A DNA stretch of 64,000 nucleotides. Origin: an uncultured Carboxylicivirga sp. (GTDB lineage: Bacteria; Bacteroidota; Bacteroidia; Bacteroidales; Marinilabiliaceae). Below, in pieces: positions 15,617-27,882 of the stretch. Below the pieces are notes generated by a model that saw nothing but the letters and a program-made list of their open reading frames with translations, was not told the origin of the DNA and made no database searches. The stretch lies in contig CANLLN010000008.1 in assembly GCA_947491945.1 (NCBI GenBank), positions 62,001 to 126,000 of the forward strand, written 5' to 3'. The translations under genes and the position numbers were made by a program. Every line of letters begins with the position of its first letter. Position 1 is the first letter of the stretch.

Positions 15617-17131
15617 TTATTTCATTGAGGTGATATAACCGGCTTCTCTATTTTTGGCTTCTTCCTTCCATTTCGGTACAATGGTATTGAGGAACTCCTT
15701 TTTCTCATCCTTCAGCTTCTTCATGGGTAACCCTATGTAGGCCTGTGCCTTGGCTTTGGTTGTGATATCGGGATAGGGCACGGGCTCGTTGTGTCCCAGA
15801 TCGGCCAGTACGCGGGCCAGTTTAATGCGTCCTTCCTGAGCGACGGTGATACCGGTGGCAATTACGCGACTTGTTTCCACAGGCGAGTGGAATGAACCAC
15901 CATGACTGGCTGCTGCGTAATCCCAGCGCCACTGCGCATGTCTGATGTCCATCAGGATGTCTTTCATTTGTGCTTCGTTGGCACCCAGGTCCCATGCTTT
16001 CTTGGCTTCCACATGCATGTGTACGATTAGCTCTTCCAGCTTATCGCGGTTTTCGATAATGCGGTCTTGCCGTTCATATACATCAGCCACCAGGCTGGTG
16101 GTCTCCTCACGGTGACACACTTGACATGAGTTGGCCACATTGTTCAGTGGACTTTGTATATGATGATCAGTAAACTTAATACCGCCTTCGCTCTTATAGG
16201 GCATGTGGCAGTCGGCACAGGAAACGCCGCGCTTGGCATGCACGCCTGTGAGGTAAACTTCGTAGCCGGGGTGCTGCGCTTTAAGCATGGGGGCACGACT
16301 TAGCTGATGCGTCCAGTCCGAGAACTCTATATTATCATAATACTCCTCCATGGCCTCAACCGACATGCCCTTGTCCCAGGGAAGTGTCAGGTAAGGCACG
16401 CCGGGGTGTGTTTTCTTGTTGAAATAATACTCCACGTGGCACTGTGCGCAGACTAAAGAGCGCATTTCCTGATGTGAGGCATCATTGATATCCTTGCCGG
16501 TGCGCTCAAAGGCTTCCACCAGTGCAGGACGTGTGATTTTCAGATTCATGGTCTCCGAGTCATGGCAGTCGGCACAGCCAATGTTATTCATCACCTCGGC
16601 ACCTTTCTCATCCCAGCTTCCTTTGTAAAATTCTGCAGGTCCCATTTCGGCCATTAGGCGGGGCACATCGGGGCTTTTGCAGGTCCAGCAGGTATTGGGC
16701 ATGGGACTCTTACTATCGGCGGAAGGAGCTCCGGTACGCAGGGTTCTCTGAATATCGTCAATGGCATGCATGTGCCCGCGACCCTGATTATAGTCTTTGG
16801 CAAAACCATAGCCGGCCCACAGCACCACCAGGCGCGGATCTACCTCCAGCATGTCTATCATGGCACTACCGTTGTATTTACTGGCAAAAGTGGTGTCTTT
16901 GGTTTTTATATAAGATTGATATTCCTTGGGGAAGTTCTGTCCCCACACTTCGTTGCGCGGTTCGGTAGGTGCATGCTTAACCTTGGGTGTATAGGCAAAT
17001 ACGGCTTCGGCACGGCGTTCCATAACGGATGAAGCCAGCAGTCCCAGTAAAAAGACAACTACAACGGTTAGTATAAAAAGCGCCCAGCCTAACCAGGGTT
17101 TTTCTTGTATTTGTTCACGAATAGGTTTCAT
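15617..17131 (-). CDS. nrfA: Cytochrome c552 ammonia-forming nitrite reductase
   Basis: 504 residues. NrfA reduces nitrite to ammonium with six electrons in the periplasm. Five haem c sites are visible: the active-site CWTCK (Cys148-Lys152, with Lys in place of His) and then CADCH, CAQCH, CADCH and CQVCH. An N-terminal helix (WALFILTVVVVFLLGLLA, ~16-33) acts as signal or membrane anchor. Length and haem spacing are standard for the family. It lies 17 bases downstream of nrfH and upstream of the porin, as a three-gene operon. Confidence 0.98.
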   Translation of the reverse strand: MKPIREQIQEKPWLGWALFILTVVVVFLLGLLASSVMERRAEAVFAYTPKVKHAPTEPRNEVWGQNFPKEYQSYIKTKDTTFASKYNGSAMIDMLEVDPRLVVLWAGYGFAKDYNQGRGHMHAIDDIQRTLRTGAPSADSKSPMPNTCWTCKSPDVPRLMAEMGPAEFYKGSWDEKGAEVMNNIGCADCHDSETMNLKITRPALVEAFERTGKDINDASHQEMRSLVCAQCHVEYYFNKKTHPGVPYLTLPWDKGMSVEAMEEYYDNIEFSDWTHQLSRAPMLKAQHPGYEVYLTGVHAKRGVSCADCHMPYKSEGGIKFTDHHIQSPLNNVANSCQVCHREETTSLVADVYERQDRIIENRDKLEELIVHMHVEAKKAWDLGANEAQMKDILMDIRHAQWRWDYAAASHGGSFHSPVETSRVIATGITVAQEGRIKLARVLADLGHNEPVPYPDITTKAKAQAYIGLPMKKLKDEKKEFLNTIVPKWKEEAKNREAGYITSMK

Positions 17132-17148
17132 AGATCATTTGATTTAGG

Positions 17149-17733
17149 TTATTTCTGATTTAATTTTTTTAGCCAGTCGGGCAGGGGGCTTTCGGGTACC
17201 GGTACCCTTGCGTGCGGAACGCTGGAGAGACTGTTCACACGCCCGTGAGGTGTCTCGCGGTGGCACTCCCAGCAATAACGGTCGTCGATGTTTTGGTGCA
17301 TATCGGGTACTTGCGCCAGTAACTTGTCATCGGTAATGAGATACTCGTGGCAGCGCACACAGTTTTGTTGTACTACCTTTTGTCCTTCTTCCTTAATAAA
17401 GATGACCTGTGGCTCGGCGCGCATGGTAAATACACTGGCATGCCGCATCCCGTCCTTGGCTTTAAAGTAATAGGTGTTAAAAACATTGTTGTGCGGTACA
17501 TGGCAGTCGTTGCAAGTGGCTACCTCACGGTGGGCACTGTGGCTCCAGGTGGCGTACTGGGGTGCCATAATGTGGCAATTCACGCAAGTAGTGGGCTCAT
17601 CCGACAGGTAGGAGTGGGCTCTTGAAACATAGAACACATAGCAGCCCAGTCCAACTAAAATGCCGGCCGTTAGTAAAACGGGCATGCGCCAATGTTCGGG
17701 GGGCTTCAGGAAATCAAAGAATTTTTTGGGCAT
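17149..17733 (-). CDS. nrfH: NrfH tetrahaem quinol dehydrogenase subunit
   Basis: 194 residues of the NapC/NirT/NrfH family, which passes electrons from menaquinol to NrfA. One N-terminal helix (LLTAGILVGLGCYVFYV, ~20-36) anchors it. Four haem sites are visible: CVNCH (50-54, followed by Met56, the unusual NrfH ligand position), CNDCH (74-78), CVRCH (125-129) and CWECH (154-158). First gene of the nrfH-nrfA-porin operon. Confidence 0.97.
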   Translation of the reverse strand: MPKKFFDFLKPPEHWRMPVLLTAGILVGLGCYVFYVSRAHSYLSDEPTTCVNCHIMAPQYATWSHSAHREVATCNDCHVPHNNVFNTYYFKAKDGMRHASVFTMRAEPQVIFIKEEGQKVVQQNCVRCHEYLITDDKLLAQVPDMHQNIDDRYCWECHRETPHGRVNSLSSVPHARVPVPESPLPDWLKKLNQK

Positions 17734-17818
17734 AAACGTTTGATTTAGATTAGCAATCAGTAAGATAGCTTACTTATGGTCTTGAATCAAATAAAAGGGT
17801 AGTTAATAGCTTATCAAT

Positions 17819-17831
17819 ATTTAGTCTAAAT
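17819..17831. promoter_or_regulatory. Operator-like palindrome upstream of nrfH
   Basis: Perfect 6-base arms ATTTAG/CTAAAT around one base, about 90 bases upstream of the nrfH start and just outside the hcp terminator. The regulator is unknown. No exact TAnnTTTG box was found upstream of nrfH, so this operon may depend on an activator. Confidence 0.35.
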
Positions 17832-17859
17832 AGCTATTCTTCAATCCTTTACCAAGCAC

Positions 17860-17893
17860 AAAGCCTGTGCATCACACAGGATGCACAGGCTTT
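17860..17893 (-). terminator. hcp terminator
   Basis: Perfect 13-base stem AAAGCCTGTGCAT/ATGCACAGGCTTT with loop CACACAGG, 33 bases downstream of the hcp stop codon. Confidence 0.85.
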
Positions 17894-17925
17894 GCAGTTG
17901 ATTTTGTTATAATCTCGTCTCTTAA

Positions 17926-19557
17926 TTAGTTGATCCAGTTCTCAACATCTTCCTTTGCCGTGCTGATGCTGCCTATGCCAAAGGTTTCAATTAATATGTT
18001 AGCCACATTGGGCGACAGGAAAGCAGGCAGGGTAGGGCCCAAGTGAATGTTCTTAACGCCCAGGTGTAGCAAGGCTAGTAACACAATCACCGCTTTTTGC
18101 TCGTACCAGGCAATGTTATAAACGATGGGCAGGTCGTTAATATCATCCAGACCAAATACCTCTTTCAGTTTAAGAGCAGTAACAGCCAGGCTGTATGAGT
18201 CGTTGCACTGCCCTGCATCCAGCACTCGGGGGATGCCACCGATATCGCCTAATGGCAACTTATTATAGCGATATTTAGCACATCCGGCGGTAAGTATCAC
18301 CGTATCCTGCGGTAGTTCGCTGGCAAACTCAGTATAATAATCACGGTCCTTCATGCGGCCGTCGCAGCCCGCCATCACCACAAATTTCTTAATGGCACCG
18401 CCTTTTACGGCTTCTACTACCTTATCGGCCAGTTGAAGCACCTGATTGTGCGCAAAACCACCTACAATAGTGCCGGTTTCAATCTCGGTAGGAGGCGAAC
18501 ATTTTTTCGCGTGCTCAATGATGGCCGAGAAGTCTTTCGGCTGCCCGTTGACGCGATCGGGGAAATGCACGCAGCCGTCAAAGCCCGAGGATCCGGTGGT
18601 GTAAACACGGTCTTTGTACGAGGCTTTGGGCGGTACAATACAGTTAGTGGTGAAAAGGATGGGGCCGTTGAATGATTCAAATTCAGTGGTTTGCTTCCAC
18701 CAGGCACTGCCGTAGTTACCCACAAAATTATCGTATTTCTTAAACTTAGGGTAGTAATGAGCGGGCAGCATCTCGCTGTGTGTGTAAACATCAATGCCTG
18801 TGCCCTGGGTTTGCTCCAGCAGATCCTCTAGGTCTTTAAGGTCGTGGCCGCTGATGAGGATGCCCGGATTATTGCCCACGCCAATATTAACCGAAGTGAT
18901 TTCAGGATTACCATAGGATTCAGTGTTGGCTTTGTCCAACAGAGCCATTACTTCCACACCAAACTTACCACACTCCAGTACCAGTGGAACCAATTCATCA
19001 GCAGCGATGCTATCTGAGAGGGTAGCTACAAGGGCTTTCTTGGCGAATTGATAGATGGCTTCGTCTTCGTAACCCAGGTTCCAGGCATGCTCGCCATAGG
19101 CCGCCATTCCTTTCAGGCCGTAGGTAAGCAGCTCTTTCAAAGAACGGATGTCTTCGTTTTCGATGGACAGGATACCGATTAACAGGGCTTTTGACTCCAT
19201 GTCGTTTTCATTAGCTCCCCGGTAAACGGCGCAGTCATGCAATTCGGCGGGCGGCTCAATTTGAGCCTTTATCTCATCCTGAACGGCATACCCTTCCTTT
19301 ATTTTGGCCACAATTTTATTGCGGTCGAAGTTGGCATTGGTAATGGTTACAAACAGGGCATCGATGATGTACTTATTGGCCCTGTCCTGCGCCACCCCTT
19401 GTTGGTCGGCCAGCTGACTGAGCAGCGCTACACCTTTGGTTGTGTACACCAGCAGATCCTGAAGGTTGGCCACATCGGAGGTTTTTCCACATACTCCTTT
19501 GATTTCGCAACCCGTTCCTTTGGCTGCTTCCTGACATTGATAGCAAAACATACTCAT
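17926..19557 (-). CDS. hcp: Hydroxylamine reductase / hybrid cluster protein
   Basis: 543 residues, standard for the prismane family. Hcp reduces hydroxylamine in vitro and is thought to act as an NO reductase or nitrosative-stress protein in the cytoplasm. The N-terminal cysteine block [15 protein letters not shown]...GVCGK binds the 4Fe cluster. The hybrid-cluster cysteines and Glu lie in the C-terminal half ([36 protein letters not shown]). It sits between nrfHA and a ferredoxin-type gene in the same direction, with a 120-base upstream gap holding two palindromes. Possibly co-regulated with nrfHA. Confidence 0.98.
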
Positions 19558-19617
19558 GATGATCGGTATTTAAGTTATTGATTATGGTTTAAACTTTTTT
19601 GAGTCACAATGTATTCT

Positions 19618-19630
19618 CCTTAAGTTAAGG
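19618..19630. promoter_or_regulatory. Palindrome CCTTAA-G-TTAAGG upstream of hcp
   Basis: Perfect 6-base arms around one base, about 61 bases upstream of the hcp start on the minus strand. Candidate operator. No TAnnTTTG box is visible downstream of it. Confidence 0.3.
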
Positions 19631-19650
19631 AATTAATAATTAATAGTTTC

Positions 19651-19664
19651 ATTCATGGATGAAT
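19651..19664. promoter_or_regulatory. Palindrome ATTCAT-GG-ATGAAT in the hcp upstream gap
   Basis: Perfect 6-base arms, 14 bases past the stop codon of the ferredoxin gene. It could be an operator for hcp or part of a weak hairpin ending the upstream gene. Confidence 0.3.
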
Positions 19665-19677
19665 GAGTAGGGAGGTA

Positions 19678-20559
19678 TTACACCCACTCTTCTTTGATTA
19701 TTTCACCTTCAATGGATACCATGGCCAGTTTTAGCGGTATTTTACGCGAGGCGCGCTCCACTGCCATCTTAGCCTGTTGCAACAATCCGCCGCAGCAGGG
19801 TACCTGCATAATGGCCACCGTTAGGGTATTAATTTTAGCCTGGTCAATCATCTGAATCAGCTTATCTACATATATTTCCTGATTGCTATCGAGCTTGGGG
19901 CAGGCAATGCCTAAGCTTCTGCCCTTTAGAAATTTACTATGGAAGTTTCCCATGGCAAAGGCCACACAGTCGGCTGCCAGCACCATGTCTGAATCTCTGA
20001 AGTAAGGTGCCATTGGGTTGACCAAGTGCATTTGAACCGGCCATTGGCGGAGCTCTGATGAGGCTTCACCTGTAGGGTTCGATGGAGCTGAAGCTGCTGG
20101 GCGCTCTATTGAACGGGCTGCAGCTCCCGGGCAACCTCCTCCCGAATGTACTTGTTGCATCACCGACACCTGCGGTTTGTGTACTTGGCGGATTACATCA
20201 TCAACGCGAAAGCTGAGGCTGTTTTCATTCTCTTTTAACCAGCTAACCGCTTGTTTTAGAAAAGTAATTTCGTTGTGTTCTTTCAGGTGCTTTAAATGGG
20301 CAACTACGGTATTGATGCCTTTTTCCACCATGATGGCAATTACCTTTAACTCATCATAAGGCTCAGCTTCGCGCTTTTCAATGGTCATGGCATCCTGCGG
20401 GCAATGATTTAAGCACGCACCCAATCCATCGCACATCAGGTCGCTTATAAGGCGCGCCTTGCCATCTATTATCTGCAAAGCACCTTCATGGCACGAGGGT
20501 ATGCAAACACCGCATCCGTTACATTTATCCTCATCGATTTTTACTACGTCTCTTATCAT
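19678..20559 (-). CDS. Hcp-associated 4Fe-4S ferredoxin-type protein
   Basis: 293 residues. The N-terminus carries CNGCGVCIPSC (one full 4Fe-4S site) and CDGLGACLNHCP, where the second Cys of the usual CxxCxxC is Leu. A C-terminal Cys-containing domain follows (GGGCPG, VLAADCVAF, IACPKLDS, QVPCCGG). Proteins of this layout sit beside hcp in anaerobes and are proposed electron donors for Hcp. The ATG at 20559 is chosen because a -7 element at 20592-20599 would put the transcript start at about 20585, leaving a 26-base leader; upstream ATGs would be leaderless or untranscribed. Confidence 0.85.
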   Translation of the reverse strand: MIRDVVKIDEDKCNGCGVCIPSCHEGALQIIDGKARLISDLMCDGLGACLNHCPQDAMTIEKREAEPYDELKVIAIMVEKGINTVVAHLKHLKEHNEITFLKQAVSWLKENENSLSFRVDDVIRQVHKPQVSVMQQVHSGGGCPGAAARSIERPAASAPSNPTGEASSELRQWPVQMHLVNPMAPYFRDSDMVLAADCVAFAMGNFHSKFLKGRSLGIACPKLDSNQEIYVDKLIQMIDQAKINTLTVAIMQVPCCGGLLQQAKMAVERASRKIPLKLAMVSIEGEIIKEEWV

Positions 20560-20591
20560 TGTACTGCTTTTTTTGATCATTTTTACAGTAG

Positions 20592-20599
20592 CAAATGTA
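20592..20599 (-). promoter_or_regulatory. -7 promoter element TACATTTG for the ferredoxin gene
   Basis: Exact TAnnTTTG match on the minus strand. The Fnr-like palindrome at 20621-20636 is centred about 41 bases upstream of the expected start point, the classical class II activator position. Confidence 0.55.
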
Positions 20600-20620
20600 A
20601 GGCGGTGGCAGCACGATGTC

Positions 20621-20636
20621 TGTAACAAATGTTACA
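20621..20636. promoter_or_regulatory. Crp/Fnr-type operator TGTAAC-AAAT-GTTACA
   Basis: Perfect 6-base inverted repeat with a 4-base spacer, between the divergent ferredoxin and Crp/Fnr regulator genes. It is ~44 bases from the regulator start codon. Spacing and symmetry fit a Crp/Fnr dimer. Binding by the product of 20680-21345 is inference from position. Confidence 0.7.
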
Positions 20637-20679
20637 AAATCGGAATTAATTTATAATTTGGTACAAAATTACTGAATTC

Positions 20680-21345
20680 ATGAAGATACTATTAAACTGT
20701 CCTTTATTTAAAGGCATCACTTATGGTGATATGGTACATATTCTGGATGAAATACCTTATCAGATAAAGAAATACGGCAAGGGGCAGATGATTGCACAAA
20801 GCGGTGATGAATGTCGCTCGTTGATGATTATGCTCAAGGGCAGTGTCAAAGGGGAGATGATTGACTATTCGGGTAAGGCCATTAAAATTGAAGATATTGA
20901 GCCACCCAAACCCCTGGCCATCGCTTTTTTGTTTGGTGAGAATAACCGCTGTCCGGTGAATGTGGTGGCCAATAATGAGGCCGAGTTGCTACTCTTGCCC
21001 AAAACATCGGTCATCTCTCTTATGCAACGGAGCGATATCTTTCTGAGTAATTTCATGAATATCATCTCCAGCAAAACGCAGTTTCTATCCGATAAAATTC
21101 GTTTTCTGTCATTTCAGACCATACGTGGCAAAATTGCCCATTACCTCTTGCAGCTTTCCGGATCGGTAGATGGTGAATTGATACTGCCGAAAAGTCAGGA
21201 GGAGCTGGCCAATATGTTTGGGGTGGCCCGTCCTTCGCTGGGGCGTGCCCTTCGTGACTTGCACAATGAAAATATTATAGAGGCAAGGGGAAAGAGCGTG
21301 AAAATTATGAATCGGGAAGCCTTGATTCAACAGCTGAAAAAATGA
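20680..21345 (+). CDS. Crp/Fnr family regulator (HcpR-like)
   Basis: 221 residues: an N-terminal cyclic-nucleotide-type sensory beta barrel (~10-120), a dimerisation helix (~125-150) and a C-terminal winged helix with ELANMFGVARPSLGRALRDLHNENII as recognition region. There is no N-terminal Cys cluster of the Fnr type, so oxygen sensing by a 4Fe-4S centre is unlikely. The divergent hcp-ferredoxin neighbourhood and the palindrome in the shared promoter suggest an HcpR-type sensor of NO, possibly through haem. That function is inferred from context. Confidence 0.85.
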   Translation: MKILLNCPLFKGITYGDMVHILDEIPYQIKKYGKGQMIAQSGDECRSLMIMLKGSVKGEMIDYSGKAIKIEDIEPPKPLAIAFLFGENNRCPVNVVANNEAELLLLPKTSVISLMQRSDIFLSNFMNIISSKTQFLSDKIRFLSFQTIRGKIAHYLLQLSGSVDGELILPKSQEELANMFGVARPSLGRALRDLHNENIIEARGKSVKIMNREALIQQLKK

Positions 21346-22048: not shown

Positions 22049-22416
22049 TGAGTTGGAGAACAACAAACCCGCTTTGAAAAGAATGCCATTCTATGGTAGC
22101 TATCCTGTTTCTACAAATTGCTAATGCTGTTGATTGTGCTGAGGATATTGAGCGCATTAATTCGTTCACTGTTTAAAAATTCAACAGTGTTGAATTTTTA
22201 AACAATAAATATAACAAACTGATTGACAGGTGACTATATTGCATTTCAACTAGGAGTGTTGAGAAATTCTACAATTCAACGCTGACAATCCGTTTCGGGC
22301 ACACTGTTAATTGTCTGGTTACATGCGTGTTATGTGGTTTAGGTATTATTATTGGGTAGTCTTATAATAATGAGGATCTATTATATAATAAATAATAATG
22401 CTAAAACCCTAATGTC
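22049..22416. other. 368-base intergenic region with repeated TTCAAC half-sites
   Basis: No gene is supported here. The region holds the perfect 16-base palindrome at 22170-22204 and further copies of its TTCAAC/GTTGA(A/G) core near 22246, 22258 and 22277. The last 100 bases before the fusion-protein start are very AT-rich. No sigma-54 -24/-12 element with correct spacing was found. Confidence 0.5.
22170..22204. repeat. Perfect 16-base inverted repeat
   Basis: Arms TGTTTAAAAATTCAAC and GTTGAATTTTTAAACA separated by AGT. No T run follows, and it lies 120 bases past the preceding stop, so it is more likely a protein-binding site or bidirectional structure than a simple terminator. Confidence 0.85.
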
Positions 22417-24087
22417 ATGAACTACAGATTGTACCTTATCGGCGTTGTATTCTGCTTTTTTAGCTTTACGACCCTATGTGCGACCAGTCCGGCTGTTGGA
22501 ATGGCGCAAGAAGAAGAGGCTCTGGAGGTCCGTTACTCATCTGATTTGTATCATTTAGTGATGGACTGGATTGTTGAATATCAGGCCTTAACACCCACTG
22601 CTATCCAAGCAAATGAATTAACCGATGCTTTTGCTTCTGATAATAAGCACCTTAGTTTTGTGTCTGACGAGACCATAAATTCCCTTGCACAAGGCTCGCA
22701 TTGGAAAGTAGTAGTGGGCCATGATGCCATTGTGCCGATCATTAACTCTAACAATCCATTGCTTCAGGAGATAGGTGTTCAGGGGCTAACTGCTGAAAAA
22801 TTAGCTTTGCTTTTTAAGGAGTCAGCCGAGCAAAACTGGGCAACCTTACTGGATGATGTTCCAAACCACCCGCTCCATTTTTACCTATGCGATGATGGAT
22901 CGATTGTTCAACGACTTGGTAATTTCATCCACTCAGAACCAGATCTGATAAATGCCAGGCGTGTGTTAAGCTCAGAGGAGCTGATTGCCGCTGTACAAAA
23001 AGATAAGTATGCTATTGGATTCTGTCGATTGAACGAAATCCGTCAGGTTGATGCAAACGAGTGGATTGAAAACATTTCATTGGCACCCATTGACAAAAAT
23101 GGCAACCGGCGCATTGATAATTTTGAGGATGTTTACAGTACTCCTTCAGCCTTGGCCAGAGGGGTTTGGATTGGGAAATATCCATCAGCGCTAAGCGGAA
23201 ATATCTATGCTGTTACGGCGCAAAAGCCAGTTGATGAAAGTACTGTGCAGTTTCTTACTTGGGTGCTTTCAGAAGGAGGGCAGTTGTTGAGTGAGTACGG
23301 ATATAGTGATTTAGCCTCAGCTGAGAAACGTGCGTATATTGATTTAGTAGTGCAACCAGAACATATGTTGGCTCAAACAGTAGCGCAAGAGACATCTAAT
23401 AAATGGTGGGTTGTATTACTTGGATTGCTCGCTGGTGCCATCGTCTTGATTTATCTGTTGGCTCAGCTTGTTATGCCACGCTCCACTTCGGCTGGCGCAG
23501 ATATTCATAGTTCATCTGTTTTAAACGAAAACACCATTGTGGCGCCTAAAGGGTTGTATTTTGATAAAACCCATACCTGGTCGTTTATTGAGAAAAATGG
23601 TTTAGTTCGAATTGGTATCGATGATTTTATGCAGCACATCACAGGAGAAATCACTCGTGTAATGCTAAAGCGTCCCGGCGAAAAAGTGGAAAAAGGGGAA
23701 AAGCTACTCACCATAAGTTGTGTGGGTAAGCAACTAACCATTTATTCACCCATTACAGGAGTTATCAAGCAGGAGAACCAACAGCTTCTGAGCCATTCGA
23801 CACTAATCAATAGTTCGCCCTACAACGAAGGATGGGTGTACCTGATTGAGCCTTTAAACTGGTTTAGAGAGATACAGTGTATGTTAATGGCAGATAGCTA
23901 TAAGGCCTGGTTGAAAGCAGAGTTTATGCGTTTGAAAACATTCTTATCCTATGCCGCCCGTTCAAATACTGCAGTCTATCAACACATAATTTTGCAAGAT
24001 GGAGGTGAGCTACACGACCATGTTTTGGCCGATTTAGATCCTGAGGTATGGGAGGAATTTCAAACCAAATTCATTGATAAAGTCTGA
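22417..24087 (+). CDS. PstS-like periplasmic domain / TM helix / GcvH-like domain fusion
   Basis: 556 residues. After a signal peptide (LYLIGVVFCFFSFTTLCA), residues ~35-315 resemble PstS-type binding proteins: WKVVVGHDAIVPIINSNNP, LTAEKLALLF and a closing SEYGYSDL. An EF-hand-like loop DKNGNRRIDNFE (226-237) lies inside. One helix (WWVVLLGLLAGAIVLIYLLA, ~329) leads to the cytoplasm. Residues ~380-490 match glycine-cleavage H protein: KTHTWSFIEKNGLVRIGI, PGEKVEKGE, YSPITGVI and NEGWVYLIEP. The lipoyl-lysine position appears to be Gly437, with Lys438 next to it. A conserved-looking C-terminal helical tail follows. No glycine-cleavage or phosphate-transport genes are near; a two-component pair follows. 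I recognise no experimentally defined function. Confidence 0.75.
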   Translation: MNYRLYLIGVVFCFFSFTTLCATSPAVGMAQEEEALEVRYSSDLYHLVMDWIVEYQALTPTAIQANELTDAFASDNKHLSFVSDETINSLAQGSHWKVVVGHDAIVPIINSNNPLLQEIGVQGLTAEKLALLFKESAEQNWATLLDDVPNHPLHFYLCDDGSIVQRLGNFIHSEPDLINARRVLSSEELIAAVQKDKYAIGFCRLNEIRQVDANEWIENISLAPIDKNGNRRIDNFEDVYSTPSALARGVWIGKYPSALSGNIYAVTAQKPVDESTVQFLTWVLSEGGQLLSEYGYSDLASAEKRAYIDLVVQPEHMLAQTVAQETSNKWWVVLLGLLAGAIVLIYLLAQLVMPRSTSAGADIHSSSVLNENTIVAPKGLYFDKTHTWSFIEKNGLVRIGIDDFMQHITGEITRVMLKRPGEKVEKGEKLLTISCVGKQLTIYSPITGVIKQENQQLLSHSTLINSSPYNEGWVYLIEPLNWFREIQCMLMADSYKAWLKAEFMRLKTFLSYAARSNTAVYQHIILQDGGELHDHVLADLDPEVWEEFQTKFIDKV

Positions 24088-24236: not shown

Positions 24237-25907
24237 ATGAAAAGGCTCAAAAATATTTTATTTAACAGAAAATCTGTCAAGCGGGTTTTAAAGCCGCATG
24301 TAAAGTTCCATTCTTCCATTTATGGAAGAGTGGTCTTTTTTATTTTTATTTCAGTCGTCTTTTTATTTGTTTCTTTTTGGGTCATATTCAGATCTTTAAA
24401 CGAACAGTACTTTGAATCCGTGCTGCACGATAAGGGTATGAATATCGGTTCATTAGTAGAGGGCGCACTGTATCGGTCAATGCTCGAAAATGATCGTCAG
24501 TCGCTTCAGAATACGCTCGATATTATTGATACTATGTCGGGTATTGACGATGTTAACATGTACGATACCAATAACAACCTTGTTTACACTTCTATTTCCA
24601 GAGATTCATTGCACCATAGCGATCCGGATTGTAAAAGCTGCCATATAGATTTCGCATCCATGTTTGAAGAGAAAGAGAAATCTTACCGAGTTATTGATGT
24701 GGAAACGGAATGCAGCATGAATCAGAACCCATTTAACAGCCGACACCTGTTAATTAAATCACCGATTTTAAATTCTCCCAGTTGCTCAACCACTGACTGT
24801 CATGCCCATTCCCAAGAGGAAGAAGTGCTCGGTTCCTTACTGATTAAGCTACCGATGAAGGATCTGGATGATGCCCTGTCGGCTTCCACAAAAGATTACA
24901 TCATTTTGGCGGCCATCATGTCTTCGCTGCTGTTTATCTTTCTTATTTTGTTTACCTATAAACAAATCGAAAACCCATTGAATGCCATCATCAGAGCCAG
25001 CCAGGCTGTCACTAAAGGAGATAAGAGCACCCGACTGGAGATTAAGACCCGGCAATTGTCAGATATCAGAACTGTTTCCCTTGCATTTAATAACATGTTA
25101 GATAATTTGCAGGCCGCCAATAAGGAATTGCAAAACTGGTCGAAACAGCTGGAGTATAAGGTGCAAAAAAAGAGCGAGGAGTTAGGTCAGGTTCAAAACG
25201 AACTTATTAATATAGAGCGCATTGCTTCGCTGGGTAAATTATCTCTTTCCGTAGCTCATGAGATAAATAATCCGTTATCTGGCATTTTGGTTTATGCCAA
25301 GTTAATTCAAAAGCAGTTGCAAAAGGTTTTAGCGGATGAAGACAAAAAAGAGCCCTTATTAAAGAACCTCAAACTCATTGAAAGCGAAACCAAGCGCTGT
25401 GGCGATATCGTGAAAGGCTTATTGGATTTTTCCCGCAAAGATCAGAATGACTTTGAAGCCAAGCATATACACGATGTACTCCACGAAACCTACGAATTGA
25501 TGGCCCATTCGATGAAAGTAGCAGGGATTGATTTTGTGGTTGATTTTGGCGCGAGAAATGACTTAATTCACTGTAGTCCTAATCAAATCAAACAGATTTG
25601 TATTGCTATTTTGGTGAATGCGTCGGAAGCTGTTTCCGAAAATGGGGAGATCATCTTCCGAACCTCTAATCCCAACGATGAAAGTATCCGTATTGAGGTG
25701 ATTGATAATGGTGTTGGAATTCCGGAGGCAAATATTCAGCGTGTTTTTGAGCCATTCTTCTCAACCAAAGAAAAGACCAGTGGCATTGGTTTGGGGCTGG
25801 CCATTGTGCATGGCATCGTTCAAAATCATAATGGTAAAACAGATATTGTTTCAGACAAAGGAAAAGGTACATCTATCATTATAACCTTACCTTTAGCTAA
25901 TACATAA
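24237..25907 (+). CDS. Sensor histidine kinase with periplasmic haem c motifs
   Basis: 556 residues. TM1 (~30-52) and TM2 (~221-242) enclose a periplasmic sensor containing CKSCH (Cys132-His136) and CSTTDCH (Cys183-His189, a CxxxxCH site). Both are haem-attachment patterns. A HAMP domain (~243-297), a coiled coil, the H-box VAHEINNPLSG (phosphorylated His341) and an ATPase domain with NASEAV, DNGVGIP, FEPFFSTK and GIGLGLAIV follow. The response regulator starts 6 bases later. A redox- or gas-responsive role is likely from the haem motifs; the signal is unknown. Confidence 0.88.
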   Translation: MKRLKNILFNRKSVKRVLKPHVKFHSSIYGRVVFFIFISVVFLFVSFWVIFRSLNEQYFESVLHDKGMNIGSLVEGALYRSMLENDRQSLQNTLDIIDTMSGIDDVNMYDTNNNLVYTSISRDSLHHSDPDCKSCHIDFASMFEEKEKSYRVIDVETECSMNQNPFNSRHLLIKSPILNSPSCSTTDCHAHSQEEEVLGSLLIKLPMKDLDDALSASTKDYIILAAIMSSLLFIFLILFTYKQIENPLNAIIRASQAVTKGDKSTRLEIKTRQLSDIRTVSLAFNNMLDNLQAANKELQNWSKQLEYKVQKKSEELGQVQNELINIERIASLGKLSLSVAHEINNPLSGILVYAKLIQKQLQKVLADEDKKEPLLKNLKLIESETKRCGDIVKGLLDFSRKDQNDFEAKHIHDVLHETYELMAHSMKVAGIDFVVDFGARNDLIHCSPNQIKQICIAILVNASEAVSENGEIIFRTSNPNDESIRIEVIDNGVGIPEANIQRVFEPFFSTKEKTSGIGLGLAIVHGIVQNHNGKTDIVSDKGKGTSIIITLPLANT

Positions 25908-25913
25908 TGAGAA

Positions 25914-27260
25914 ATGACTATGGCTACTAAAATATCAATATTAATTGTTGACGATGAAGCATCGGTGAGAGATTCGCTGTATCAATGGTTTATTGAAGAC
26001 GGGTATCGGGTTGAGTGTGCGGTAAGTGCTAAAGAGGCCTTGGCTAAACTGGAGGCCGAAGTTTTTGATATTGTGTTGGCCGATATCAAAATGCCGGGCA
26101 TGGATGGGCTGGAAATGCTCCGCCGCATTAAATCAATGGAAACGAGCCCCATTGTTATTGTTATGACTGCTTTTGCTACCGTGGATACGGCTGTTCAGGC
26201 GCTTAAAGATGGTGCTTACGACTATATTACCAAACCCTTCGATCCGGATGAACTTTCTCATTTAATCAGGAATGCCTGTAAACAAATTACTTTGGAGGCC
26301 GAAAATGAAATGCTTAAAGAAAAGGTGGTTTCGTTGGAAAATGTGGAGGATTTGATTGGCGATAGCGAAGTCATGCGTCAGCTGATGCAGGAAATTGGCA
26401 GCGTTGCACAGTCGAATGCTTCAGTGATTATAACGGGCGAAAGTGGTACGGGCAAGGAGCTGATTGCACGCGCTATTCATGCCAATTCACCGCGTAAATA
26501 TTTTCCTTTGGTCATCGTCCATTGTGGAGCCCTGACAGAGAGCTTGCTCGAAAGCGAACTGTTCGGGCATGAGAAAGGCGCATTTACAGGGGCCGTTTAT
26601 AATCGCAAGGGCCGTTTTGAAATGGCTGATTGCGGAACGATTTTTTTGGATGAAATAGCCACCATCCCACCTAAAATGCAAATTGAACTGCTGCGGGTTT
26701 TGGAAACCAAAAGTTTCGTAAGGGTAGGAGGTAATAAGGATATTTGTTCAGATTTCAGAGTGATTTGTGCCACCAACAGGGATTTGAAAAGCATGGTCGA
26801 TAAAGGCCTCTTTCGCGAGGATTTATATTACCGGCTGAATGTGATCAATATTAATGTGCCTTCGTTGCGCGATCGAACAGAGGATATTCCTTTGTTGGTT
26901 GATTACTTCATAAAGAAATATTGTCTTTCAATGAATAAGCCGCTTATCACTGTGGAGCCATCCGCACTGAATCGGCTGGAAGAATTTCCTTTTCCAGGCA
27001 ATATTCGCGAATTGGAAAACATGATTGAACGGGCCATTGTTATTGGCGACGGAAAAAAAATTCGCCTTAAAGACTTGCCTATTGGTAAGGAGTTGGTCAG
27101 TAGTTCATTCGAAAGTCTGGAGGACATTGAAAAGGATCATATCCTCTCCATTTTAAACAAGTATAGCTGGAATATTACAGCTGCTGCCAAGGCCCTGAAG
27201 GTAGACCGGGTAACCCTTTATAATAAAATCAAAAAATACCAGTTGAGTCCCGAAAAGTAA
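25914..27260 (+). CDS. Sigma-54-dependent response regulator, NtrC family
   Basis: 448 residues. The receiver domain (~6-120) has phospho-acceptor Asp57 in LADIKMPGMDG and the Thr/Lys pair MTAFA...KPFDP. The AAA+ domain has Walker A GESGTGKE, the sigma-54 contact loop GAFTGA and the arginine-finger region. The C-terminal Fis-type helix-turn-helix is NITAAAKALKVDRVTLYNKI. It is coupled to the kinase gene and completes a two-component system. Target promoters would need -24/-12 elements (GG-N10-GC); none was found in the gaps examined within this window. Confidence 0.96.
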   Translation: MTMATKISILIVDDEASVRDSLYQWFIEDGYRVECAVSAKEALAKLEAEVFDIVLADIKMPGMDGLEMLRRIKSMETSPIVIVMTAFATVDTAVQALKDGAYDYITKPFDPDELSHLIRNACKQITLEAENEMLKEKVVSLENVEDLIGDSEVMRQLMQEIGSVAQSNASVIITGESGTGKELIARAIHANSPRKYFPLVIVHCGALTESLLESELFGHEKGAFTGAVYNRKGRFEMADCGTIFLDEIATIPPKMQIELLRVLETKSFVRVGGNKDICSDFRVICATNRDLKSMVDKGLFREDLYYRLNVININVPSLRDRTEDIPLLVDYFIKKYCLSMNKPLITVEPSALNRLEEFPFPGNIRELENMIERAIVIGDGKKIRLKDLPIGKELVSSSFESLEDIEKDHILSILNKYSWNITAAAKALKVDRVTLYNKIKKYQLSPEK

Positions 27261-27333: not shown

Positions 27334-27882
27334 ATGAATCCTGACAAAATCACTTTAATAGCTTTTGGCCAAATAGAGAAAGGTTTTCTTGAAACGATTG
27401 CCAGAGATGTGGAGCAGGAATTTCTGATGAAGGTAACAATTACAGATGGCTATTTGGATTTAAGTAAGTACTTTGACTCGGCACGCAGGCAGTATAATGC
27501 CAATCGCTTAATTGAAACCATAGAAAAGGATTATGCTGCTGATACAAGCAAGACAGTTGGCTTGTTTACAGTGGATTTGTACATTGATATTCTCACATTC
27601 ATCTACGGACAGGCTTATTTAAATGGTCGATCTGGTATTGCATCCATGTTTCGCTTGCGTAACGAACGTTATGGGCTGAGCCGTAACGATGCATTGATGT
27701 TGCAACGTTTTACAACCGAAATTATTCATGAACTGGGACATACTTTTGGCTTAATTCACTGCCATGTTCCCGGCTGTGTAATGCAGGCCAGTACTTATGT
27801 CGAGGATATCGATCAGAAAGAACATCAGTTTTGCTACCATTGTAAAAGCCTGTTAAACCATCGGCTTAACAGCCGCCTGTAG
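27334..27882 (+). CDS. Archaemetzincin family zinc metalloprotease
   Basis: 182 residues. The metzincin zinc motif HELGHTFGLIHC (His132, Glu133, His136, His142) is followed by Cys148, Met150 and a closing CYHC, the pattern that defines archaemetzincins with a second structural zinc. The start gives the typical N-terminus with beta strand KITLIAFGQIEKGFL. There is no signal peptide, so it is cytoplasmic. It lies 73 bases after the response regulator in the same direction and may belong to the same transcription unit. Physiological substrates are not known for the bacterial members. Confidence 0.92.
   Translation: MNPDKITLIAFGQIEKGFLETIARDVEQEFLMKVTITDGYLDLSKYFDSARRQYNANRLIETIEKDYAADTSKTVGLFTVDLYIDILTFIYGQAYLNGRSGIASMFRLRNERYGLSRNDALMLQRFTTEIIHELGHTFGLIHCHVPGCVMQASTYVEDIDQKEHQFCYHCKSLLNHRLNSRL

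Follow-up and report, generated by a model that had tools for sequence, protein, structure and literature searches.

The window, i.e. the whole 64-kb stretch of DNA that was analysed, contains a gene encoding a PstS-like domain fused to a GcvH-like domain (named here GcvH-A), followed by the genes of a sensor histidine kinase, an NtrC-type response regulator and an archaemetzincin (Table 1). In related genomes, these genes belong to a conserved cassette that also encodes an iron-sulfur (FeS) protein, an NrfD-type protein and a second H-fold protein. From gene content, residue conservation, an operator array and the pattern of a kinase tree, all read directly in the sequences, we propose that the kinase and the regulator form a redox two-component system dedicated to the membrane redox/H-fold operon next to it, which it would drive, a reading to which we give a probability of about 60%.

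Table 1. Features of the GcvH-A locus (positions in the window)
Feature	Position	Strand	Remark
Operator site 1	22169..22187	.	PWM 22.6 bits
Operator site 2	22187..22205	.	PWM 22.1 bits
Operator site 3, 69 bp past site 2	22256..22274	.	PWM 20.0 bits
Weak sigma-54 -24/-12-like element TAGGTATTATTATTGGG, 84 bp past site 3	22340..22356	+	8/10 positions
GcvH-A fusion: signal region, PstS-like domain, transmembrane helix, GcvH-like domain, conserved C-terminal tail	22417..24087	+	556 aa
PstS-like domain, residues 36-310; pocket loops of free-standing relatives lost	22522..23346	+	
EF-hand-like loop, residues 226-237, common to fusions and free-standing relatives	23092..23127	+	
Transmembrane helix, residues 330-352	23404..23472	+	
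GcvH-like domain, residues 380-500	23554..23916	+	Pfam GCV_H, Foldseek
G437-K438: Gly at the lipoyl-Lys position, Lys next	23725..23730	+	G then K in 81/81 GcvH-A
C-terminal tail LQDGGEL...PEVWEEFQ, past the end of the Pfam GCV_H match	23992..24072	+	
Sensor histidine kinase; CxxCH (24630-24644) and Cx4CH (24783-24803) in the outer region	24237..25907	+	
NtrC-type response regulator; GAFTGA, Fis-type HTH	25914..27260	+	
Archaemetzincin (M54) with HELGHTFGLIHC	27334..27882	+	

The fusion protein and its gene cassette

The original prediction had read the open reading frame as a PstS-like domain joined by one helix to a GcvH-like domain, and its coordinates and folds were all borne out. The GCV_H family of Pfam matches residues 380-500 with 80.5 bits (cut-off 22.2), while the curated GcvH equivalog TIGR00527 gives 71.2 bits, below its cut-off of 115.85. 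For PBP_like_2 (cut-off 27), the full protein scores just below the cut-off with 25.2 bits and the isolated PstS-like domain reaches 27.8 bits. In the AlphaFold model (mean pLDDT 80.6, pTM 0.51), the H domain has the fold of an H-protein (Foldseek TM by target 0.90 for 1onl and 0.91 for 3a7l). The best matches of the PstS-like fold are phosphate-binding proteins, with a moderate superposition on 4jwo (E 3.1e-14, TM by target 0.59). The number of Lys and Arg residues is higher on the C-terminal than on the N-terminal side of the helix in 63 of the 73 fusions but tied in the window (1 and 1), so that a cytoplasmic GcvH-like domain is likely from the sequences rather than proven.

Such an architecture is not due to chance, since the fusion is matched at E <= 1e-50 in 38 out of 295 genomes of the order (host included) and 250 stretches of the species collection encode relatives. 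At the order level, the neighbourhoods of all 37 relatives were taken and their genes clustered. From the species collection, which was scanned with a pair of short peptide patterns taken from the Bacteroidales form, we used the best 80 of the 250 relatives, and these 80 named loci therefore favour close kin; the genome-by-genome search covered the phylum of the host. Some named loci lie on the same contigs as order-level loci (e.g. L076 and L033, L139 and L043). According to the record titles, the best 80 of the 250 are nearly all Bacteroidota, including several Prolixibacteraceae, and are mostly metagenome-assembled.

The full cassette encodes, in this order, GcvH-A, an HmcB-like 4x[4Fe-4S] protein, an HmcC/HybB-like NrfD protein, GcvH-B (a second membrane-anchored H-fold protein made of a helix and an H-fold), the kinase, the NtrC-type regulator and the archaemetzincin. 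It is present in the Bacteroidales and in other classes of the phylum. Downstream sequence of 9 kb or more is available for 61 named loci, of which 50 carry the full cassette in order (including those with tandem kinases and four without the PstS-like domain), 5 are reduced like the window and 6 are of another kind, such as L138, where the kinase, regulator and protease stand in front. The median gaps in the named loci are 44, -80 and 47 bp within the run from GcvH-A to GcvH-B, 199 bp before the kinase, and 12 and 55.5 bp after it. GcvH-A and GcvH-B share the tail LQDGGEL...PEVWEDFQ, outside the Pfam GCV_H domain, and a profile of this tail found matches in 29 of the 395 genomes of the phylum, namely the host and 28 genomes of the same phylum, not of the same class. 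At 20 of these 28 loci, a GcvH-like gene is followed by FeS, NrfD, kinase, regulator and archaemetzincin genes. As these classes have the same cassette with a short GcvH-A devoid of the PstS-like domain, the PstS fusion is, on this comparison of sequences, the Bacteroidales form of an older system.

The kinase and sigma-54 regulator with which the fusion had been associated are both present downstream of it, and the conservation of these neighbours across loci (50/61 named loci, 20/28 loci of other classes) confirms that they belong together. The reported lack of glycine-cleavage and phosphate-transport genes also holds as far as the profile searches reach, no gcv or pst gene being found among those proteins of the 64-kb window that were run against profiles. 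The original prediction overlooked the full cassette, where the H-fold protein stands beside a redox-competent HmcBC-type module, because this cassette is not present in the window. We found no published description of the cassette among the titles and abstract openings listed, most subscription journals being outside this search; the available part of a Geobacter comparison (PMC2825233) does not mention GcvH, HybA or NrfD.

Several loci show further peculiarities. The kinase is duplicated in tandem in the full cassettes of L034, L043 (same contig as L139) and L105. In L187 and L189, a second, divergent set flanks the cassette, with HmcB-like and NrfD proteins, a 13-heme cytochrome, a kinase with heme motifs and a regulator-like protein. 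The cassette of L134, a record titled Alphaproteobacteria, is almost identical to that of the Bacteroidales record L143 and probably comes from a mislabelled assembly.

In the redox block, all 69 cassette FeS proteins have 16 conserved Cys, in four groups of four. We infer their periplasmic location by analogy with HmcB/HybA, a strict twin-arginine pattern being limited to 22 of the 69; the Pfam signal match is below cut-off. With the curated HmcB and HmcC profiles (NF045715 and NF045714), the FeS and NrfD proteins of L076 obtain 291 bits (cut-off 420) and 400 bits (cut-off 550), respectively, i.e. less than expected from equivalogs. We compared the cassette NrfD proteins at the 25 HybB positions listed in the available text of an NrfD review (PMC8076601): 13 are identical in 68/68 proteins, 4 in most of them, and 8 differ. 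HybB residues R89, Y99, E148 and H184, whose replacement impaired HybB according to work cited in that text, are kept in all 68; a search of the same text returned neither GcvH nor HmcC. No catalytic subunit was recognised within the cassette.

The H-fold and PstS-like domains

The Gly seen in place of the lipoyl Lys (G437), with a Lys one residue on (K438), is confirmed by the alignment, as both residues are invariant in the 81 Bacteroidales GcvH-A. In GcvH-B, the lipoyl position is occupied by Gly, Asp or Asn in 65/65 sequences, and by Lys in none of the 65. GcvH-A is therefore not an ordinary lipoylated H protein, and the carrier role once envisaged for its GcvH-like domain loses its support, since the position of the covalent cofactor is Gly throughout the Bacteroidales. 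A lipoylated carrier was thus rejected on the missing lysine. A variant of this idea would have the lysine moved to K438 in an H protein or LbpA-like carrier. Although the invariance of K438 fits this variant, the attachment position itself is Gly, the +1 Lys is retained by only 56/65 GcvH-B, and the other classes have a Lys at the site in only 2/46 and 0/11 rows. Furthermore, a separate GcvH with the lipoyl lysine is encoded on a different contig of the host genome, and in E2 lipoyl domains a lysine displaced by one residue is no longer lipoylated. Taken together, these observations make a displaced lipoyl lysine barely credible.

According to the original prediction, the fusion would be a ligand-gated relay, in which a small molecule is bound by the PstS-like domain and the signal is handed to the kinase by the H-like domain. 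The predicted PstS fold, the selection acting on the domain (dN/dS of the N-part 0.13-0.24) and the EF-hand-like loop are in line with this proposal. The main ligand positions of the loop (D226, N228, N230 and E237) are invariant in 73/73 fusions, which makes Ca2+ or another ligand possible; position 231 is Gly in 68/73 fusions and Arg in the window. However, the three pocket loops are all lost in the fusions. Among 20 free-standing PstS-like relatives, by comparison, 17 keep the loop SGAFALYP, and also DLGMvSR and TRSDACGAA with small changes; in the other three (L194, L195 and L197), which rank among the top matches to the profile of the fusion domain, the loops are looser and SR is missing. 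Moreover, the PstS-like domain is missing from GcvH-A in 8 of the 38 order-level loci, and from the short GcvH-A proteins of other classes, in the same cassette. Given the lost loops and the loci without the domain, classical ligand gating appears unlikely, and we regard the relay as a whole as quite improbable. A phosphate sensor was likewise rejected on the lost pocket loops. In the kinase tree described below, the six rows whose GcvH-A has no PstS-like domain form one clade.

ABC transporter genes, which would accompany a genuine PstS, are not among the conserved cassette genes. Among the 12 free-standing relatives with flanks fetched, 9 adjoin what we take, by sequence recognition and not by profile, to be two permease-like proteins and an ATPase; the three with loose loops have no such neighbours. 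Two of the nine adjoin genes that are, on the same recognition, presumably of a sulfate-assimilation type. They are found at L218:8141-11874 and L219:8499-12214, where a free-standing PstS-like protein with the EF-hand-like loop is encoded in a two-permease/ATPase operon that is possibly a sulfate or other oxyanion importer of the PstSCAB type. Free-standing proteins with loosened pocket loops and no adjoining transporter genes occur in L213, L214 and L215, preceded in the last two by the gene of a small protein with a hydrophobic N-terminus; they may represent a half-way stage towards the PstS-like domain of the fusion.

Control region, two-component pair and reduced loci

Upstream of GcvH-A, 2-5 copies of TGTTKA-N5-TMAACA with fixed spacing were found in 77/77 loci, four of the 80 loci with 300 bp or less upstream being dropped from the count. 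This 6-5-6 palindrome resembles the NtrC site. By k-mer counts, TGTTGAA is present in 71 of the 77 upstream regions, where random windows from these loci would lead one to expect 10. A refined 19-bp palindrome, whose model (PWM) was derived from the very upstream regions scored, gave 274 sites, with at least two per locus in 77/77 and one in 60 of 1540 control windows. The spacings cluster at 18/19, 69/70 and 24/25 bp and were not part of this model. Downstream of the array, the sigma-54 pattern TTGGCAY-N5-TTG is found at 9/10 positions or better in 74/77 loci, against 87/1540 controls. It lies 92-95 bp past site 3 in 65 of 72 loci and one helical turn closer (82-84 bp) in the other 7. An earlier pattern, TGGCAC-N5-TTGCW, was found in only 4/76 loci, the -12 box being mostly TTGAA, and matches the host genome 163 times, vs. 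92 for the reversed control.

In the window, sites 1 and 2 form a 35-bp perfect palindrome (22170-22204) ending 212 bp before the start codon, and its 31-bp core is unique in the host genome even when up to 3 mismatches are allowed. The element TAGGTATTATTATTGGG is placed as in L070, the nearest relative among the best 80 of 250 (83 bp), and the reduced locus L044 has a similarly weak -24/-12 element. The exact operator consensus occurs three times in the host genome: twice at the array, and once (G000:C34:13802-13818) at the 3' end of an unrelated gene, presumably RdgB-like, with no sigma-54 element in the 3 kb read. At one mismatch, there are 9 places in the host genome vs. 8 for the reversed control. 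Over 13 genomes, the exact consensus has 14 matches, 7 of them at the cassette, compared with 3 for the reversed pattern; five of the 13 are devoid of any exact consensus site. In the other classes, at least two operator sites occur in 13 of 26 upstream regions and in 22 of 1120 control windows, and a spacing of 22/23 then 75-86 bp occurs in 9 of the 26 regions and in 9 of the 1120 windows; these control windows may contain some true upstream regions. No conserved promoter was found before the kinase.

The regulator is of the NtrC type, with a receiver, an AAA+ domain with GAFTGA (36/36) and a Fis-type HTH, and its HTH ends are nearly constant among those compared. Co-location and HTH conservation point to the regulator as the protein that would bind the array, and to the run behind the array as its probable main target. 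The fusion had been taken as a ligand-gated signal relay. That it belongs with the kinase and the regulator still holds, but the operator array and sigma-54-type element before its gene had been overlooked, and they suggest that the H-fold protein is not only an input of the pair but also, at least in part, its output.

Among 37 kinases, the first c-heme motif is CxxCH in 36 and the second Cx4CH in 35, and their six Cys/His are invariant in 18 aligned kinases. The kinase model is poor (pLDDT 59.7), with a long helix followed by strands and the motifs in loops between strands; as modelled, the outer region recalls the heme-Cache family described in PMC12889525. PF11845 (sCache_heme) does not match the window kinase up to E 0.5 and is not among 25 of the 29 families listed for 18 kinases, and a PDB sequence search with the outer region returned nothing credible. 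The archaemetzincin scores 156.2 bits with NF033823 (cut-off 145), and HExxHxxGxxH is present in the window protein and in 33/35.

Further upstream in the window, NrfA and NrfH (minus strand), an Hcp hydroxylamine reductase, a 4Fe-4S protein and a CRP-type regulator are encoded together (15617-21345), like a nitrite/NO stress island. A link of the cassette to nrfHA/hcp was considered and rejected: a full-length NrfA (E <= 1e-100) was found in 22 of 36 genomes with the cassette and in 14 of the 28 other genomes of the order, i.e. NrfA and the cassette are not associated. The cytochrome c assembly family is uninformative (36/36 vs. 25/28). Both counts leave out G017, one of the 37 relatives.

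The window itself carries a reduced form, where the FeS, NrfD and GcvH-B genes are missing and GcvH-A, kinase, regulator and protease remain. The sole NrfD-family match in the host genome belongs to what we take to be an alternative-complex-III-like operon and is not a cassette NrfD. L070 (Marinilabiliaceae bacterium A049), the nearest relative among the best 80 of 250, is reduced too, and the cassette NrfD is absent from 6/6 reduced genomes and present in 3/3 full ones. A quick kinase tree (78 rows, 11 of them reduced) requires at least 9 changes between full and reduced forms. The eight outgroup kinases were all given the full state, L173 among them, where no NrfD was detected; there are still 9 changes without the L173 state or without any outgroup state. 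As the full form exists in other classes, these changes are presumably losses.

GcvH-A could also be only a structural or assembly subunit of an HmcBC-type complex, left as a remnant in reduced genomes, with the kinase and regulator controlling something else. Its first place in a run with FeS and NrfD genes (50/61 loci) would agree with such a function, as would the weak promoter element of the window and the dN/dS values. In four full pairs, dN/dS is 0.11-0.18 for GcvH-A and 0.03-0.05 for the kinase; in one close reduced pair, it is higher still for GcvH-A (0.23, vs. 0.07 for the kinase). However, 0.23 is still purifying selection, to which the fusion of this pair is subject on this sequence estimate. 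In addition, across the 9 or more changes, every reduced locus retained GcvH-A together with kinase, regulator and protease, and the operators persist in 10 of the 11 reduced loci, the eleventh (L117) having no upstream sequence. We therefore hold a purely structural subunit to be rather unlikely, even if GcvH-A could, in reduced loci, be a leftover under slow decay though selection persists.

Proposed mechanism and comparison with known systems

On the whole, the original prediction was right about the kinase/regulator link and in not seeing an ordinary lipoylated H protein, and it lacks support for ligand gating and for the carrier role. Neither of the two outcomes named in it as grounds for refutation was observed, the neighbours being conserved and the lipoyl lysine absent. 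For the preferred reading, i.e. a redox two-component system with its own membrane redox/H-fold operon, we infer the signal, the binding, the protein contacts, the co-transcription and the role of the H-fold as follows. The kinase would sense the redox state or NO via its hemes, and the regulator would bind the operator array and switch on the run. The two H-fold proteins would be subunits of the redox module that lie on its cytoplasmic face and dock other proteins, and GcvH-A would couple the state of the module back to the kinase. In the lineage of the window, the FeS-NrfD-GcvH-B block would have been lost; GcvH-A, with its degenerate PstS-like outer domain, would be the remaining product and act with the kinase itself. 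The archaemetzincin would be a conserved accessory.

More tentatively, the cassette may define a class of membrane redox complex of which we found no description. It would have an HmcBC-type quinone/FeS core and two lipoate-less H-protein heads for cytoplasmic signalling, and a heme kinase/sigma-54 pair of its own would both build and sense it; where a lineage is reduced, only the H-fold head would survive, as partner of the kinase. If so, the H-protein fold would serve energy metabolism or signalling purely as a protein-protein module, and one more NrfD complex would be added to those known. It would also provide a heme kinase whose readout is already at hand, as its input signal could be tested directly through the operator array and promoter. 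Given the record titles of the best 80 of 250 loci, nearly all Bacteroidota and mostly metagenome-assembled, this may bear on electron-acceptor sensing by environmental Bacteroidota.

Two known GcvH-like proteins are comparable. GcvH-L of the SirTM operon is, in the part of PMC4518038 available, a non-canonical GcvH that is encoded in a redox-stress operon and stands apart from glycine cleavage. This redox context away from glycine cleavage is shared by the cassette; GcvH-L, however, is lipoylated on a conserved Lys and accompanied by LplA2, whereas the site is Gly in GcvH-A and the conserved cassette genes include no ligase. LbpA of sHdr sulfur oxidation (PMC6067878, available part) is also a GcvH-like protein linked to redox chemistry, but its lipoyl lysine is strictly conserved and its neighbours are hdr genes, while the cassette has neither this lysine nor hdr neighbours and its proteins are thus not LbpA. 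For the kinase, the available part of PMC12889525 describes sCache_heme (DUF3365/Tll0287) sensors, for which a role in NO/redox sensing is proposed. They have in common with the cassette kinase an extracytoplasmic sensor region with a covalent c-heme motif; the window kinase differs by the lack of a PF11845 match and by its two motifs, the second being Cx4CH.

Hmc/HybAB-type complexes resemble the cassette in their HmcB-like FeS protein with four groups of four Cys and their HmcC/HybB-like NrfD protein. In contrast to them, the cassette has no recognised cytochrome, HmcF or hydrogenase gene, and two H-fold proteins instead. Finally, as in NtrC-family systems with upstream enhancers, the cassette combines a GAFTGA regulator, a Fis-type HTH and 6-5-6 palindromic sites upstream of a -24/-12 element; it differs from them by its three- or four-site array with fixed spacing, apparently serving one operon, and by a -12 box that is mostly TTGAA.
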